Of a DNA stretch of 64,000 bases, positions 2,301 through 64,000 are shown in pieces. The notes under the pieces were generated by a model. That model saw only the letters and a program-made list of their open reading frames with translations. It ran no database searches and had not been told where the DNA came from. Numbering within the stretch: position 1 is the stretch's first letter; each line of letters starts with the position of its first letter. The stretch is from Prorocentrum cordatum (Eukaryota > Sar > Dinophyceae > Prorocentrales > Prorocentraceae), in contig CAUYUJ010017893.1 in NCBI GenBank assembly GCA_963575745.1, positions 412,946-476,945 of the forward strand, given 5' to 3'. Position numbers and translations under genes: made by a program.

Positions 2301-2479
2301 CGGGTGTTGCTAGAATTCCCCCTGGCCCAAGGTGCCCCCAGCTTTTCGATCCATTTTGGAGCCCTGGGGCCCTCTGGGCCTCGTGAGGGCTGCTCTGGAA
2401 GCCGTTTCGTTTGGACTACCCCGAGAATCCTGGGGGGCACTTTGGCCCAGGGGCACTTCTATCCAGCAACGCCCGAAAA
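2297..2479. mobile_element. Family I TIR element, copy 1
   Basis: About 183 bp. The left end (TTTTCGGGTGTTGCTAGAA, then CCCCTGGCCCAAGGTGCCCC) is matched in inverted complement by the right end (GGGGGGCACTTTGGCCCAGG, then CAGCAACGCCCGAAAAG). The TIR is roughly 45 bp with mismatches. Related copies are at 11234 and 16605. Confidence 0.75.
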
Positions 2480-3109
2480 GTTTATGCCTGTGCCATCCGA
2501 TGCTCCCCGATGATTTCCGCCTGCCTGGACCTCGTCGTCGGGCGCCCCGGCGCCAGGGGCTCCTCCGAGCGGCCTCGGGGACTGCCGCGGCGAGCGTGGA
2601 GACGGCCGCGGCGGACGCGCTGCGGCGCCCCGCGCGCCGCCGGGGGGCGTAGGCACGCCGCCGCTGCTGCCGCGCTGCCGCCGGAGGCCGCTCCAGGCCA
2701 GCTGCTGCATCGGCGGCGGGGTCTCCGACGACGAGCCGTCGGCGGAAGACCTCTCCAGGGGCGTGGGCGGCACCGTGCGCGGTCTGCGCCGGGCAGGGGC
2801 GTGGACCTCGTGGACCAACGGCGTCAGCAGCTCCCGCAAGGAGCTGGCGCGGTCACTGCTGGGGCCCAGCTGCCAAGAGGCCACCCGCTGCTCCAGCACC
2901 CTGACGTACTCGTCCTGCCAGCCGCCCGCGCGGCGCCCCCGGACCGCGTTCTGCCGCGGCGCCGACTGCGGCCCAGGGTCGCTGGCAGCCCTCGCCTCTA
3001 ACTGATCCGCCCAAGAATCGCTCCCTGGATCTGAACAAACGTCGAGGAAAGTTCCGGTGCGCTGGAGTTTCCATTCCGTGTCCGAGCTGCCGGAGGCGGG
3101 CGCGGCCAT
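2459..3109 (-). CDS. hypothetical protein, possible single exon
   Basis: An open frame of about 216 codons from the methionine at 3109. The first ~110 residues look like genuine coding: mixed composition with Asp/Glu/Trp/Gln, for example SSDTEWKLQRTGTFLDVC, then WQDEYVRVLEQRVASWQ, which looks helical. The C-terminal ~60 residues become Arg/Pro/Gly rich and low complexity, and the last ~7 codons plus the stop lie inside the family I element. The native 3' end was therefore probably lost or lies across an intron. The frame extends upstream past 3109 without a stop, so an earlier start is possible. I recognise no domain. Confidence 0.45.
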   Translation of the reverse strand: MAAPASGSSDTEWKLQRTGTFLDVCSDPGSDSWADQLEARAASDPGPQSAPRQNAVRGRRAGGWQDEYVRVLEQRVASWQLGPSSDRASSLRELLTPLVHEVHAPARRRPRTVPPTPLERSSADGSSSETPPPMQQLAWSGLRRQRGSSGGVPTPPGGARGAAARPPRPSPRSPRQSPRPLGGAPGAGAPDDEVQAGGNHRGASDGTGINFSGVAG

Positions 3110-3219
3110 GCGCAGCCGCGCGCTGTGGCCAGCGCCTCCAGGTGGAACCATGCTCTCTACACATTCCGGGCCGTCTCTGTACATCATCCGTTGAACCGGC
3201 GATCCGAAAATTGCTGAAC

Positions 3220-3771
3220 TAAGGCACTTGGGACAAAACGGCTGCGGAGGCCTTCGTCACCATCATGGTGCTGACCGAACACCTCTGCGGCAGGGGTCTC
3301 AACCACGCAGGAAGTCCATGCCCACCCTCCCCATCTCGACTGCGAGAACCTCATACAGAGCTGTACGCAAGCCTGTCGGCCCGCTTACAAAAAAAACATG
3401 TGTGTTCCCCAACCGTGCTTTCACTGAAGGTGGTCGTCGCGAAGTCGAAAGAATTGGCGAACATGCTTTGCCAATTTCGCTCGGCGGCGGGGTTCCCAGT
3501 TTACGATTTCAGGCTCTGGCGGAAAAACTGTGCGCCGAATCCGGTGGGCGACCGAGTTCCTGAGCCAAGCTCCCCAATTCCAGGTCCCCAGCCGATTTCG
3601 GTGGGCGGCCAAGTTCCCTGGCTCCTCGCTCCAAATTTTTGGCTCCCAGCTCTGTACGGCTTCTGGGTCGGTTATATTCAGGTCTTGTTGCGCCAAGTGC
3701 GCATGTCATTGCGACAGCGAGAAAATGAGAAAGTCGAATTTAGAGAATACGAATTGCAGATGAGAGGTTAG
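3220..3771 (+). CDS. hypothetical coding segment
   Basis: An open plus-strand frame follows an acceptor-like CTAAG at about 3219. It contains TWDKTAAEAFVTIMVLTEHL and later TELYASLSARLQKKHVC. Composition looks protein-like in the first ~80 codons. Further on it passes a short near-duplicate (GGTGGGCGACCGAGTTCC / GGTGGGCGGCCAAGTTCC, ~3545 and ~3600) and may not be coding. No family recognised. It is divergent from the minus-strand frame ending upstream at 3109. Confidence 0.28.
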
Positions 3772-46719: not shown

Positions 46720-47115
<396 letters not shown>

Positions 47116-47499
47116 TGCTTTGGTGCATCGGCAGCCTGGGGCGTCCACACCTCGCCAGGCCCGTGCGCTGGGCCCTCGAGCGACCATCGTCGCCTGCCGA
47201 GCCTCCGAGGGAACCGAGCCGCGGGCAGCGCTCCCGCCGACTCCTCAGGGTGCAGAGCGCGCTGGCCCCCTCGCGGCCGCGCCCCACCCTAGGCCCCTCA
47301 GCCTGGAGCCAAGGAGGGCTGAAAAGCGAGAACACGCGCCGCGCCCAGGCCCCGCCAACGGCGAATGCGGGCCCAGGCACCCCAAGGGACGGACCGCCCC
47401 TCAGGCCCCTCAGCCACGGCGGACACCGCGCCAAGGGGGGCAGCATCTCTACCGCTGGGGCCCCTCAGAGGCGGAACCCGCTCCCCGCGCGAGGCAAAG
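47116..47499. other. GC-rich region 3' of the retrogene
   Basis: No recognisable gene or repeat family. Possible 3' UTR of the minus-strand retrogene. Confidence 0.4.
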
Positions 47500-48653
47500 G
47501 CGCAACGGCCATCCCAGCTCGGTGAGGCCATCCAAGCAGCTGGCACTCCCGCTGCCACGATCATGAGGCCATCCACGCAGCTGGCACTCTTGCTGCACGA
47601 TCCTTAACCCCTCCTTCGGGGCTTCCACGTCCAGGCCCATCATGGTGGCGTGCTCGGGCCTGGAGCTGCTCATGTCCTGCGCCTGCAGCGCCACGACGTT
47701 CTTCTGCGCCTGGCACTCCGCCACGGCGTCGTGCAGCTGCTCCCTGAGCCTGTCGCACTGGCTCTTCACCGACTCCAGCTCGTCCAGCTGCACCGCCAGC
47801 TGGTGAAGATAGCCGTCCTCAGTCCGCGCGAGCGCGCTGAGGTAGTCCGCCTGGTCCGCCTCCAGCTGCTTCTCGAGCTCGTGCCGCGCGTCGGTGAGGC
47901 GCCGCACCTCGTGCACCATCTGCTCGACGAAGGTGGCCTGAGCTTCCGAGCCCGCCGCGGCGCCCCGCCTCTGCAGGGAGACGCGGACTTGCATCCCCTC
48001 GCGGTCCGCCAAAGCCATGCGCACCTGCTCGATGAGCGTGTCGCGCTGGGCCGTCAGCTGCTGCACCTGGCCGTCGTCGTCGACGTCGCCCCCAGGAGCG
48101 CCGTAGACCCGCTCGAGCCATGCCTGGCGGACCTGGCTGTTGGGTGCGTCCCGCAAGGCCGCCCGCACGGCACGGGGCAGCAAACCCACGTCCTCCTGAG
48201 GCGGGTCGGGTCGTCCGCCAGCATCGCTCCGCCATCGCCCTGGCTGGCGCCGCACGGGCCGCCAAAGGGGCCCGCGCCGAGCCGAGGGCCGCTCGCCGCC
48301 GCCGAGATGGCGGCGTCGCAGGCCTGCGCGAAGCCAGCCCTGGGCGCCACCGCAGCATGCCAGGCCGCATTCCTGCGACGCCTGGCGCTGCCTGGCGCCC
48401 GCGCGCCTGCCGATGCGAGCCGCAAGGCAGGACGGGCAGCACGCTCGCGGTCCTGCCAGGACCCCGGCACGCCGGCCTCGGCGATCCAGCGCCGCAGCCC
48501 GGCCTCGCAGGCCAGCTGGCGCCGTCGCCTCGCGGCCCTCCGCGCCGCCGACGGGCCCATGGTCTGGTTTTCCAGAGCCCTCCTGCTGCTGGGCCACCCC
48601 TGGGCGGGCGGCCCCCCGAGCCTCGCCTTGCCGTTGTCGCACGTCGCCGCCAT
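47500..48653 (-). CDS. coiled-coil protein, retroposed gene copy with one frameshift
   Basis: Starts at ATG 48653-48651 (MAATCDNGKARLGG). The first frame runs about 149 codons (QTMGPSAARRAARRRRQLAC, then LRRWIAEAGVPGSWQDRERA, a basic Ala/Arg helix-rich region) to GGAMLADDP near 48206. Coding then continues one base out of frame: PPQEDVGLLPRAVRAALRDA, SQVRQAWLERVYGAPGG, QLTAQRDTLIEQVRMALADR, VEQMVHEVRRLTDARHELEK, LDELESVKSQCDRLREQLHD. That is a long heptad-type coiled coil. The 3' end near 47560 falls in a ~40-bp tandem duplication, so the stop is uncertain. There are no introns over ~1.1 kb, and a spliced-leader relict sits about 100 bp upstream: the signature of an mRNA-derived copy. Function unknown; probably a structural or cytoskeletal-type coiled coil. 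Confidence 0.7.
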
Positions 48654-48750
48654 CGCAGGGGCCGCGACACAGGGAGCAGGACAGAGCCGCTCTCTCCTAC
48701 GAGGAGGAGAGGCACGGCGCGCGCCTGCCCACCCTGGCACCAGGGCTGGC

Positions 48751-48771
48751 ATGAGCCAAAATGGCTACGGG
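48751..48771 (-). other. dinoflagellate spliced-leader (DinoSL) relict
   Basis: The minus strand reads CCGTAGCCATTTTGGCTCA, identical over 19 nt to the conserved part of the dinoflagellate spliced leader, followed by TG where the leader has AG. The leader is added only to mRNA by trans-splicing, so a genomic copy immediately 5' of a gene in sense orientation implies reverse transcription and reintegration. About 97 nt of 5' UTR separates it from the ATG. Upstream is a GTGC/TG microsatellite, with no sign of a leader RNA gene. Confidence 0.88.
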
Positions 48772-48819
<48 letters not shown>

Positions 48820-48883
48820 TGTGTGTGTGTGTGTGTTGCCCGTGTGTGTGTGTGTGTTGCCCGTGTGTGTGTGTGTGTGTTGC

Positions 48884-48974
<91 letters not shown>

Positions 48975-49042
48975 GCCCGTGTGTGTGTGTGTGTGTGTGA
49001 CTGTGTGTGTGGCGCGTGTGTGACTGTGTGTGTGAGTGTGTG
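48772..49042. repeat. GTGC and TG microsatellites with TTGCCC interruptions
   Basis: (GTGC)n, then (TG)n broken four times by TTGCCCG. Confidence 0.95.
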
Positions 49043-61231: not shown

Positions 61232-62056
61232 TCACCTGCTATATTTTGCGTCTACCGCGTTCTGCAGTATCTCCTCCATTGCGCCTGGTGGCGCCGCGCC
61301 CAGAGCCCTGCGCCCGCCGATCTCCTCTAGTGCCTTCTGCAACAGGCCGCGGACCATCAAGGGCGAAGGCAGCGACTGCTCGTCTGATTCGGGCGGTGCG
61401 CTCGGCTGCGAGACGTCCCTCATCATCAGGTGGAGCTTCCTCTTGTTCTGATCGTAGCACTTCGTGACCCGAAACAGGCGCACCATGTCGTGCAGGTCGT
61501 GAGGCTGCAGCTCGCACCACACTCTGCCGTGCCAATCTTTGAGCATCGCGTGAGTCCTCTGCCCCAGCGCGAGCCCACGCTCGAGCAACTTGGTCACGAA
61601 CCCATTGAAGATATGTAGGTGAGGAGGACCGAGCTGGTGGCCTTTGCCTCGGGCTCGGACTTCGTGTGAATACGTCGCCCCTGCCTCCTGTGCGGCCTCG
61701 ATCTCTGGTAGGTCGGCGGTCAGGAACTACGTGTCCACTCCCGCTGCCCATAGCTCGCGCACCATCTGGGTCGTCATGAGCGTCTGCTTCACCAGCACGT
61801 TGATGAAGTTGGCCTGCTTCTGAGTGAAGCCCATGTCCTTGATCTGCCCGAGGTGCCGATTGCGCTGCTGCTTGCTGTTGGGCCCGTTGGCCGCGGCCGC
61901 GTCGGAGGCGGAGCCTGGGTTGGGGTTGGAGCTCTTGCCGCCCTTGTCCTTCTGTGGAGGGCCGCCCTTGGCCTCGGCCTGCACGGGGGCGCCCTCTGCC
62001 TCTGCGGCGCCAGGCGGCCGCTTCTCCAGCATCCACTTGGGCTTGGGGTTCGCCAT
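61232..62056 (-). pseudogene. retroelement-associated second ORF, interrupted by one in-frame TAG
   Basis: Starts at ATG 62056 (MANPKPKWMLEKRPPG). A Gln/Ala/Pro-rich linker is followed by IKDMGFTQKQANFINVLVKQ and MVRELWAAGVDT, then TAG at 61727-61729. The same frame continues in clearly coding sequence: FLTADLPEIEAAQEAGATYS, HLHIFNGFVTKLLERGLALG, DWHGRVWCELQPHDLHDMVR, LFRVTKCYDQNKRKLHLMMR, ending NAVDAKYSR. Total about 274 codons. It overlaps the end of the RT frame one base out of phase, with no spacer. I infer an accessory (ORF1-like) protein of a dinoflagellate LINE, but the family assignment is from context and general resemblance only. Confidence 0.6.
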
Positions 62057-62069
62057 CGCCAGCCCGTCG

Positions 62070-64000
62070 CCCAGGTAAGAAAGGCAGGTGCCGCTCGCAA
62101 ATGTGATCCTGGAGCTGGGCCAAATCGAAATTCGAAGACGTGGCGCACACTGGGCAGACCAGCCTGGGGACGACCGCGGGACGCAGTGCATGCGCGCTGT
62201 GAATATCACAAACTCCCCGACAAAAGGCCCGACAGAGATGAGCTTTCGCGGTCTTCTGGAAAGCAAAGGAAGTACGACACGCTGGACACTGGTTCGTGAC
62301 GACACATCTGGCATAGTAGGAGAAGTTGCCATGAGAGCCGCCCTGGGTGTGGGTCTGGTGCGCGACGAGAGCAGCATGGGTGAAGAAGCGGGCGCCACAA
62401 ACGTCTCCATCTTCTGTGGTGCATCTGCAAACGTGCACGCAGCCAGAGGGGCCCAAGAAGTCCTCAATCCCATCCTGTGAAGCGGAGAGGCAGGGTCCGA
62501 AGTCGATAGTGTCCAGCTCAGTCTTACCGCTCTGCCAGATCTTGCGCAAAGCAGAAACATCAGCCGCCAGAAACTGATGTGATATGTAGTCGTCATGGAA
62601 GAGCGCATGGATGTCCTCGCCCCAGACGGAGCGCCAGTCTTCATAATCAGTTAGAAGCTCGAGCCTGTAAGCGTCAGTCACGAAACGAACGGCGAACGGG
62701 TTGGCGTGAACGGTGAGGCGGCCCTCGGACAAGGTGGGGGCATTCTCGAAGCCGAGGCGACCGAAGAGGAGGCCGATGACCTGGGAATGTTCTTCGGGCC
62801 ACTTAACCATGGCCTGGTACCATCGAAGTCTCTGTATCAACAGCTCGACCCCCGACGGGGCAATATTCATCCACTTCCAGACGTCCCAAGAGTCCTTAAC
62901 AATGGGATGGTCGCCAGATCGGTCACACAAAGCCCCCGCGGCAATGCATCGGATTTTGCCCAAGAGCGCGATGTCCAACTGGGCCTCTTGAGAGCTCGTG
63001 AGGAGATACGGTGTAAGTCCAGACAGTAGCGCACCTTGCACCGCGGATGTGAATACAAGCCTCTTCACCTTAAACGGGGCCCCCGAGGTCCACAAATACT
63101 TGAAAGACATCCACCCCCTGTTGGCCGCTACTTTACTCAGTGCAAGCTGATGAGAGAAAGCGCCAGAGGGCAAAAACTGCGGTCCCAAGTACCTGGTGTG
63201 CGGGGCCACGCGGGCCCCCCCGACCTCCGCCGCATAAAACAGGCGAGTGGCCTTGTAGCCGCAAAGGCGGGGGGCCAAAACTTGTTTCGACGTGTTTTGC
63301 TTGTATCCGTACGCAGCCAGGGCATTGCCGAGCTTAGTCTGGGCGTCGCGCGCTGTGGCGACGGCCCCGGAAAGTGCCCCCTCCTGGAGTAGCAAAAAAT
63401 ATGCCAGGTCGTCCACGTATTTGAAGAGGCCCGCATAGACCTCGCGCCCGAAAACGGGGCACGACGCGCACAGAGCTGGGTCCTGAAACTGGGCGAGCCA
63501 CTCCTGGAGGGGGCGGGCAAAATCAACTCGAAATTCGTCGGGCGCACTGGGATCCCCCATCAAGGCCCCGCTTTGGAGGTGGAGGGTGGTGGGTCGATCT
63601 ACGCCCTCGAGGTGAAGAAGGTGCGTGGTGCGCCTGTCGCTGAGCAGGTCAACATCCCCTGCTGGCAAATACTCTAAAAGTCCTTGATTCATGCGCTTGT
63701 GCTCGCAACAACCGAAAGCGTTCTTCATGTCATCGAAAACAGCAATGTGCCACACGCGTGCGCTACGCAAGCGATCCGCCAGGATGTGCGTGCCCAAGAT
63801 TGCATTCTCTCGCCTGCGCCGAGGGATGCATCCATGATCGTACTCGGCAGGCGCAGCGTGTGGGACCGCCCGATAGATGCCCCTGGCGATCGCTCTAAAG
63901 AAGGGGCAGAGGCCGTGCAGAAATCGGGTGCCGCCGTCAGGTTTGGGAGTCTGCCATCCGAGAGAAAACCCCGCACACGTAGGAAACCTCCCCACCGCCC
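62070..64000 (-). CDS. LINE-type reverse transcriptase, C-terminal part (5' end beyond window)
   Basis: Enters the window at its 3' border and stays open for over 640 coding-like codons. Counting from codon 63995: KPDGGTRFLHGLCPF at 18-32 (RT fingers); VFDDMKNAF at 86-94 (motif A, catalytic Asp); SGALMGDPSAPDEF at 142-155 (motif B); KYVDDLAYFLLL from 191 (motif C, the YxDD catalytic pair). Past residue ~500 there are three Cys/His clusters: CRCTTEDGDVCGARFF then ALVAHQTH; CPACRTSFAFQKTAKAHLC; and CPVCATSSNFDLAQLQDHIC then ERH. This order (RT, thumb, terminal zinc fingers) fits non-LTR retrotransposon ORF2. After HLPFLPG (~62070) the frame is out of phase with the next ORF; the remaining open frame to 61239 is a shadow. 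Endonuclease not visible. Confidence 0.85.

Follow-up and report, generated by a model that had tools for sequence, protein, structure and literature searches.

The window, a stretch of 64,000 nt from the genome of Prorocentrum cordatum, carried on its minus strand a unit headed by a spliced-leader relict, followed by a 5' UTR, a broken ORF and a conserved 3' region, with compound microsatellites on both sides (Table 1). The earlier note on this DNA had ended the locus at 47500 and placed the search for a target-site duplication at 47450-47560. In fact the unit continued to 47111, with its terminal sequence immediately ahead of (GCAC)n(CA)n, and since (GCAC)n/(AC)n repeats flank an element of this extent, both 47500 and the suggested duplication site are internal to it.

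Table 1. Features of the spliced-leader-headed unit and its flanks (positions in the window)
Feature	Position	Strand	Remarks
Whole unit (probable retroposon copy), 1,660 nt	47111..48770	-	
5' flanking compound microsatellite	48771..49042	.	On the element strand (CA)n then (GCAC)n, abutting the leader; from sequence and TRF row
Spliced-leader relict CCGTAGCCATTTTGGCTCATG	48750..48770	-	TG in place of final AG; first variable base absent
5' leader (UTR)	48654..48749	-	Common to subfamilies with other ORFs; identity to L026 and L036
Broken ORF	48054..48653	-	ATG at 48653; 199 codons to the stop, against 448 aa in the intact relative
163-nt segment	48074..48236	-	Four relatives have 32 nt at the same place
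Point of missing sequence, 428 nt of relatives' coding sequence	47625..47626	-	
Conserved 3' region (UTR), ending GCACCAAAGCACCAAA	47111..47596	-	Identity to L036 and L026; common 3' end
3' flanking microsatellite	46848..47110	.	On the element strand (GCAC)n then (CA)n

An exact 19-nt match to the dinoflagellate spliced leader (CCGTAGCCATTTTGGCTCA) was confirmed on the minus strand at 48752-48770, in sense orientation and exactly at the 5' edge of the copied unit. Against the 21-nt leader there was one mismatch over 48750-48770, and 100 shuffled versions of the window gave no match. The family ORF has its ATG 98 nt downstream, in agreement with the distance of about 97 nt given before. The relict had been described as altered at its AG end only; the change to TG was found, but the variable first base was missing as well. 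The base ahead of CCGTAG was C. Across the genome (4,128,499,153 bases, 4.1 Gb, in 21,875 contigs) the exact 19-mer occurred 15,435 times (7,804 + 7,631), with 0 for the reversed-pattern control. The leader match in the window is real, but such matches are common in this genome.

A second, degenerate leader-like sequence (TCCGCAGCCGTTTTGTCCCAAG, 18/22 matching) was observed in the window at 3227-3248 (minus), 39 nt ahead of the ORF 2459-3187, and it is possibly an older relict. In addition, a long RT-like ORF with YVDD in its sequence was present at 61239-63995 (minus), a LINE RT in the window having been suggested as a plausible source of the machinery. It had no Pfam match at E 0.01 and none to the 20 long leader loci described below, so it was rejected as a shown source of the element.

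No parental intron structure was seen in the window copy, consistent with the intronless gene first described. The single one-base frame change reported near 48206 was replaced by two larger differences, which set the window copy apart from its four close relatives: 163 nt took the place of 32 nt, and 428 nt were absent at 47625/47626. The 163-nt segment matched only its own place (L009) in a BLAST search against loci collected from the genome and the rest of the window. The intact relative C16255 carries the 428-nt stretch as open coding sequence, and none of its three equivalent placements started with GT (0/3) or ended with AG (0/3). Thus a spliced intron was ruled out, and the gap is a coding deletion. 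With these two changes and the stop at codon 199, the window copy is broken and decayed.

A repeated family with common ends

A DNA search with 47130-48749 gave 51 matches, representing at least 40 places with the window's own included; the number is a lower bound since only 40 of 312 candidates were scored in the family search. Four relatives (C16255, C19924, C17999 and C13618) matched the window copy over nearly the whole unit with 94-97% identity. The ORF was intact in one of these five close copies, C16255 (448 aa), and was stopped at codon 302 in C13618, 232 in C19924, 234 in C17999 and 199 in the window. Among the 40 places, scored out of 312 candidates, no parental gene with introns was recognised. 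Unit length varied from 1,625 to 2,050 nt across the family. Two family ORFs (L010 and L026) gave no match in a Pfam search, and the endonuclease and reverse transcriptase coding of an autonomous LINE was not found in the family units.

Other types of members, the L023 type (358-359 aa) and the L036 type (447-481 aa), shared both ends with the window unit, with 71-93% identity in the 5' leader (UTR) and about 87-91% in the 3' UTR, while their ORFs differed. The window copy was 93% identical to L026 over positions 1-133 and 90% over the last 445 nt; for L036 the values were 71% over positions 1-146 and 87.5% over the last 486 nt. Beyond the shared ends, the only matches (E up to 1e-3) were short 3'-region repeats, 23-32 nt long. 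The proteins of L010 and L026 could be aligned over 44 residues (39%, E = 0.004), and those of L010 and L036 over 41 residues (E = 0.007), which would make them weakly related at best. L026 and L036 had about 230 residues in common (65%) and were divergent after that. L020 (C1474) had the 3' region common to the family and no relation to the other proteins compared, its 5' part being masked. In an ordinary gene family the coding sequence would be better conserved than the UTRs; the opposite pattern here fits, and may reflect, constraint or exchange at the ends needed for copying.

The 358-359-aa frame was kept in 10 of the 11 L023-type copies tested (L023, L025, L026, L029, L030, L031, L034, L035, L100 and L106), with frame-shifted L033 as the sole exception. 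Eight of this type (28 pairs) gave dS of 0.004-0.025, which indicates recent spread, and dN/dS of 0.00-0.82; all seven L036-type copies tested were open, with dN/dS of 0.27-2.19 in 21 pairs, and as the numbers are small no selection is claimed for either type.

Insertion sites and RNA signatures

Both ends could be read in 29 of the 40 places. The 11 left out were L020, L024, L027, L101, L107, C19278 and C15321 (leader not found in the sequence covered, or masked), L028 (3' end unrecognised), L037 (5' end outside the sequence covered), C19924 (3' end masked) and C16520 (flanks equal to those of C19455). In all 29 the leader was preceded, on its own strand, by an AC-type repeat, always in one orientation. 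To measure a duplication, the final bases of the 5' flank, with or without its very last base, were compared with the first bases of the 3' flank, and the longest match was scored. By script 13 copies were informative, from which the window copy (value 44, pure (GCAC)n) was removed as uninformative, leaving 12.

The duplication was exactly 16 nt in seven of these 12 (L023, L030, L034, L038, L100, L104 and L105), and those of L030 (ACACTTGGCACTGCGT) and L105 (ACACACACACACGGGA) included non-repeat bases. As a control, flanks from different copies among the 13 were paired, 5' with 3'; the 156 mismatched pairs gave a maximum of 13. The other five were without a clean 16: C13618 gave 14, L106 gave 7, and L032, C10141 and L031 gave 0, where C10141 had one mismatch in 16 and L031 possessed the 16-mer but with four extra bases ahead of the leader (read by eye). 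In the remaining 16 copies at least one flank was regular. Some of these, with one regular and one irregular flank, fell short at 4 (L033), 0 (L035), 5 (L108), 5 (C6250), 15 (C19455) and 14 (C17733), and the value of C6250 is not explained by repeat slippage. The family shows a target-site duplication of characteristic length, and together with AC-repeat insertion and common ends this fits target-primed reverse transcription of the LINE type.

The family 3' end was CCAAA(A) followed by C or G, which agrees with the mini-polyA motif of dinoflagellate polyadenylation sites (3-5 A, often with G or C next) as given in the available part of PMC2488372. Two copies were 5'-truncated: directly behind the AC-type repeat, L027 set in only at position 538 of the L026 unit and L101 only at 207 of the C16255 unit. 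A common 3' end across the family with some 5'-truncated copies is what LINE-type retroposons display, L101 having another 3' UTR. L028, L032 and L035 were full-length with altered leaders, and the 5' end of L024 was masked. L101 and L106 carried a different 3' UTR sequence, yet the identical terminal CACCAAAA stood ahead of the AC repeat.

C13618 had the full leader followed by CCATTTTGGCTCATG; this fusion of a complete leader with a shortened TG-leader is the product expected when a TG-type relict is trans-spliced again at CCGTAG. In L100 the leader was joined to GAGAGAGCGG, with the acceptor 53 nt further in. The RNA origin that had been proposed for the locus is thus supported by the leader at the exact 5' boundary, the common 3' end, the target-site duplications of the relatives, the re-trans-spliced C13618 and the truncated L027 and L101.

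The TG-ended leader was common to the window copy, C16255, C19924 and C17999, the last of which carried it twice in a local tandem duplication. The flanks of these copies beyond the repeats gave no BLAST match to one another, so the TG predates the insertion in the window. The idea of one gene copied once and fairly recently was therefore not sustained: the family is multi-copy, the nearest scored relatives are 94-97% identical, and the TG leader was inherited. If trans-splicing occurred afresh at each site, a new AG leader would be expected, and a single TG leader at unrelated sites needs an extra step. Direct repeats of 13 nt occurred twice in the double leader of C13618; losing one of these units in reverse transcription would yield the exact TG form.

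In another repeat family, L061 and L075 likewise had TG-ended leaders at two different sites. A leader followed by at least one truncated leader relict was observed in L042, L048, L053, L055, L062 and L087; as L048 and L053 are LINE-like, LINE-like elements too gather leaders over rounds.

Leader loci elsewhere in the genome

A wider sample consisted of the first 60 of 100 listed leader places (L039-L098), which is the start of the contig list and not random. A microsatellite (period up to 6, self-match of at least 0.70 over the 40 nt ahead of the first leader base) was directly upstream of 42 of the 60. The corresponding figure for control positions, taken within the 20 long loci at a distance of 300 nt or more, was 139 of 5,658 (Fisher p ~4e-51, indicative only, as control positions overlap and loci share families). 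In the 64-kb window, rich in such repeats, 10.8% of 40-mers passed the threshold. On the leader strand the repeat was CCT in 26 loci and AGG in 10 (two-sided binomial p 0.011), and the other six were AT (2), AGGATG, ATC, ACACAT and ACACAG. Among the 18 below the threshold, L041, L074 and L089 passed a looser longer-repeat test; L051 lay between copies of a 20-nt tandem repeat.

Twenty loci (about 5 kb each) were read over 3.5 kb past the leader and compared with endonuclease/RT-region query stretches, two of which, from L039 and L053, had been recognised by eye. Fourteen of them (L039, L041, L043, L044, L045, L048, L049, L050, L052, L053, L054, L056, L057 and L058) matched the endonuclease/RT-region stretch of another locus (E up to 1e-4) and are called LINE-like here; such a match was absent in L040, L042, L046, L047, L051 and L055. 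In a Pfam search with 18 leader-locus ORFs (L042 and L047 left out), Exo_endo_phos was found in six and RVT_1 in one. Both domains occurred together in L043 only, an APE-type LINE with a 1,869-codon open frame. The other Exo_endo_phos matches were in L048, L049, L050, L052 and L054, those of L049 and L054 being under the Pfam cut-off, and 12 of the 18 ORFs had no Pfam match to the endonuclease.

Four LINE-like loci were read to their ends: L043, L056 and L048 were flanked by CCT repeats and L050 by AT, on the same strand at both sides. L048 had an exact 16-nt duplication (CTCCTCCTCTCCTCCT), L043 and L056 had regular flanks, and L050 had no match of at least 14/16. The 16-nt length in both the AC-targeted family and CCT-targeted L048, a single LINE-like case, suggests related enzymes. 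In L046 the candidate 16-mer recurred in a second downstream repeat. A short leader-headed unit with a 367-codon open frame was also observed in (ACACAG)n (L133, C26:179300-181000), with a second leader locus following it.

L047 was a 652-nt unit outside a microsatellite; its tail was A-rich and its duplication matched at 14 of 16 positions. Its ORF, starting MAPMMKSTVMTKSALTAALAEACEV as read from the DNA, presumably resembles a dinoflagellate histone-like protein, and it is plausible that L047 is a true host retrogene.

Origin of the copies and relation to known systems

The best explanation, which we consider very probable, is that 47111-48770 (minus) represents a non-autonomous retroposon copy, headed by the spliced leader and now decayed. 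In its cycle a family copy would be transcribed, and the RNA would gain the leader by trans-splicing and be polyadenylated at the mini-A site. A LINE-type machinery would then nick an AC-type microsatellite and prime reverse transcription there, and the insertion would leave a 16-nt target duplication. For the family, the following are established: its many copies and common ends, its insertion in one orientation at AC-type targets, a 16-nt duplication in most of the informative copies, and repeated gain of the leader. The enzyme would be supplied by an APE-type LINE acting in trans, and the same route probably made the window copy, whose pure (GCAC)n flanks hide the length of its own duplication. 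HAL1-like elements are short, LINE-dependent and non-autonomous, with an ORF of their own. The family units are likewise short with their own ORF, no RT was found in them and they were presumably mobilised in trans, but they differ in having no identified parent LINE.

A one-off reverse transcription of a single host mRNA, with insertion at this place, is improbable. The sense leader ahead of an ORF and the lack of introns would agree with it, L047 in the same genome looks like such a case, and leader-tagged retrogenes are established in dinoflagellates, as the available part of PMC6050394 indicates. Against it stand the at least 40 related places, the AC-type repeat at 29/29 copies read at both ends, the different ORFs with common UTRs and the inherited TG leader. 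A spliced-leader RNA gene or a chance match deserves hardly any credence. The leader is near-complete, but it was followed by CATGCCAG (CATGCC...), where the family body stood instead of the GT donor expected of such a gene, which was rejected on this ground; for a chance match, the 0 in 100 shuffles and the 0 for the reversed pattern speak against it.

Spread at the DNA level has somewhat more in its favour but is still unlikely. In this case one retroposition would have been followed by copying of (AC)n-bounded units to other (AC)n tracts through recombination or gene conversion, which may explain the TG subfamily only. The TG leader is shared by the window copy, C16255, C19924 and C17999 though re-trans-splicing should add a new one, their flanks beyond the repeats are unlike, the tracts are long, and the exact 16-nt duplication was measured in none of the TG-type copies. 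However, 16-nt duplications with non-repeat bases (L105, L030) are not expected from repeat recombination, and a double leader collapsing between its two CCATTTTGGCTCA units in reverse transcription would produce the single TG form with no need for copying at the DNA level, the double form being kept in C13618. The retroposon cycle remains our preferred reading of the family.

As far as the available parts of the published reports go, dinoflagellate recycled cDNAs gain leaders repeatedly and carry relicts truncated at the CCGTAG acceptor (PMC3229502, PMC12014239). The present copies resemble these leader-tagged retrogenes in the 5' leader, the RNA origin and the repeated leader gain with CCGTAG-truncated relicts; those described in these parts are host genes, whereas here the family is repetitive and modular, and the wider leader loci differ in being LINE-like in 14/20, in tandem repeats and with 16-nt duplications. 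In Amphidinium carterae, the part of PMC2488372 at hand describes a leader-like genomic sequence ahead of a start codon and, where polyadenylation takes place, a genomic run of 3-5 A with G or C next to it, taken as suggestive of an RNA intermediate. Both resemble the ends of our family, though that part gives no insertion site, duplication or mobile family. Togen, specific to (TG)n, and some HERO families are microsatellite-specific non-LTR retrotransposons (PMC4640811, in part). They are alike in microsatellite insertion, and the repeat type of Togen is the same (TG/AC), but they are placed with or near lineages with a restriction-like endonuclease (NeSL, HERO), while the LINE-like loci here are of the APE type (Exo_endo_phos) and start with the leader.

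In the literature searched, no report was found of leader-headed LINEs or of microsatellite-borne leader retrocopies, which is no claim that none exists in print. Neither appeared in the available parts of PMC10666404, PMC11453091, PMC12014239, PMC7245778, PMC4640811, PMC10235124, PMC3229502, PMC8045281, PMC5890265, PMC2488372 and PMC6050394. The kind of event, leader-marked mRNA recycling, is already known. No precedent was found in the literature searched for the modular family, for the repeat targeting or for the 16-nt duplication.

A wider proposal, advanced tentatively and with rather less than even confidence, is that most genomic leaders here mark a retroelement ecology and not host retrogenes. 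It would consist of APE-type LINEs and non-autonomous riders, the trans-spliced leader first, each aimed at one tandem repeat and leaving 16-nt duplications. CCGTAG after pyrimidine-rich (CCT)n would rebuild a trans-splice acceptor, so copies could be re-capped with a fresh leader in a self-renewing cycle that also carries host mRNAs. Since 14/20 long leader loci look LINE-like, leader relicts alone may overcount host retrogenes. Recycling of mRNA into dinoflagellate genomes has been ascribed to retrotransposons with the machinery unnamed, in the part of PMC12014239 available, and the 16-nt duplication, the tandem-repeat target and the leader-headed LINE-like elements offer concrete, checkable signatures of that recycling machinery.
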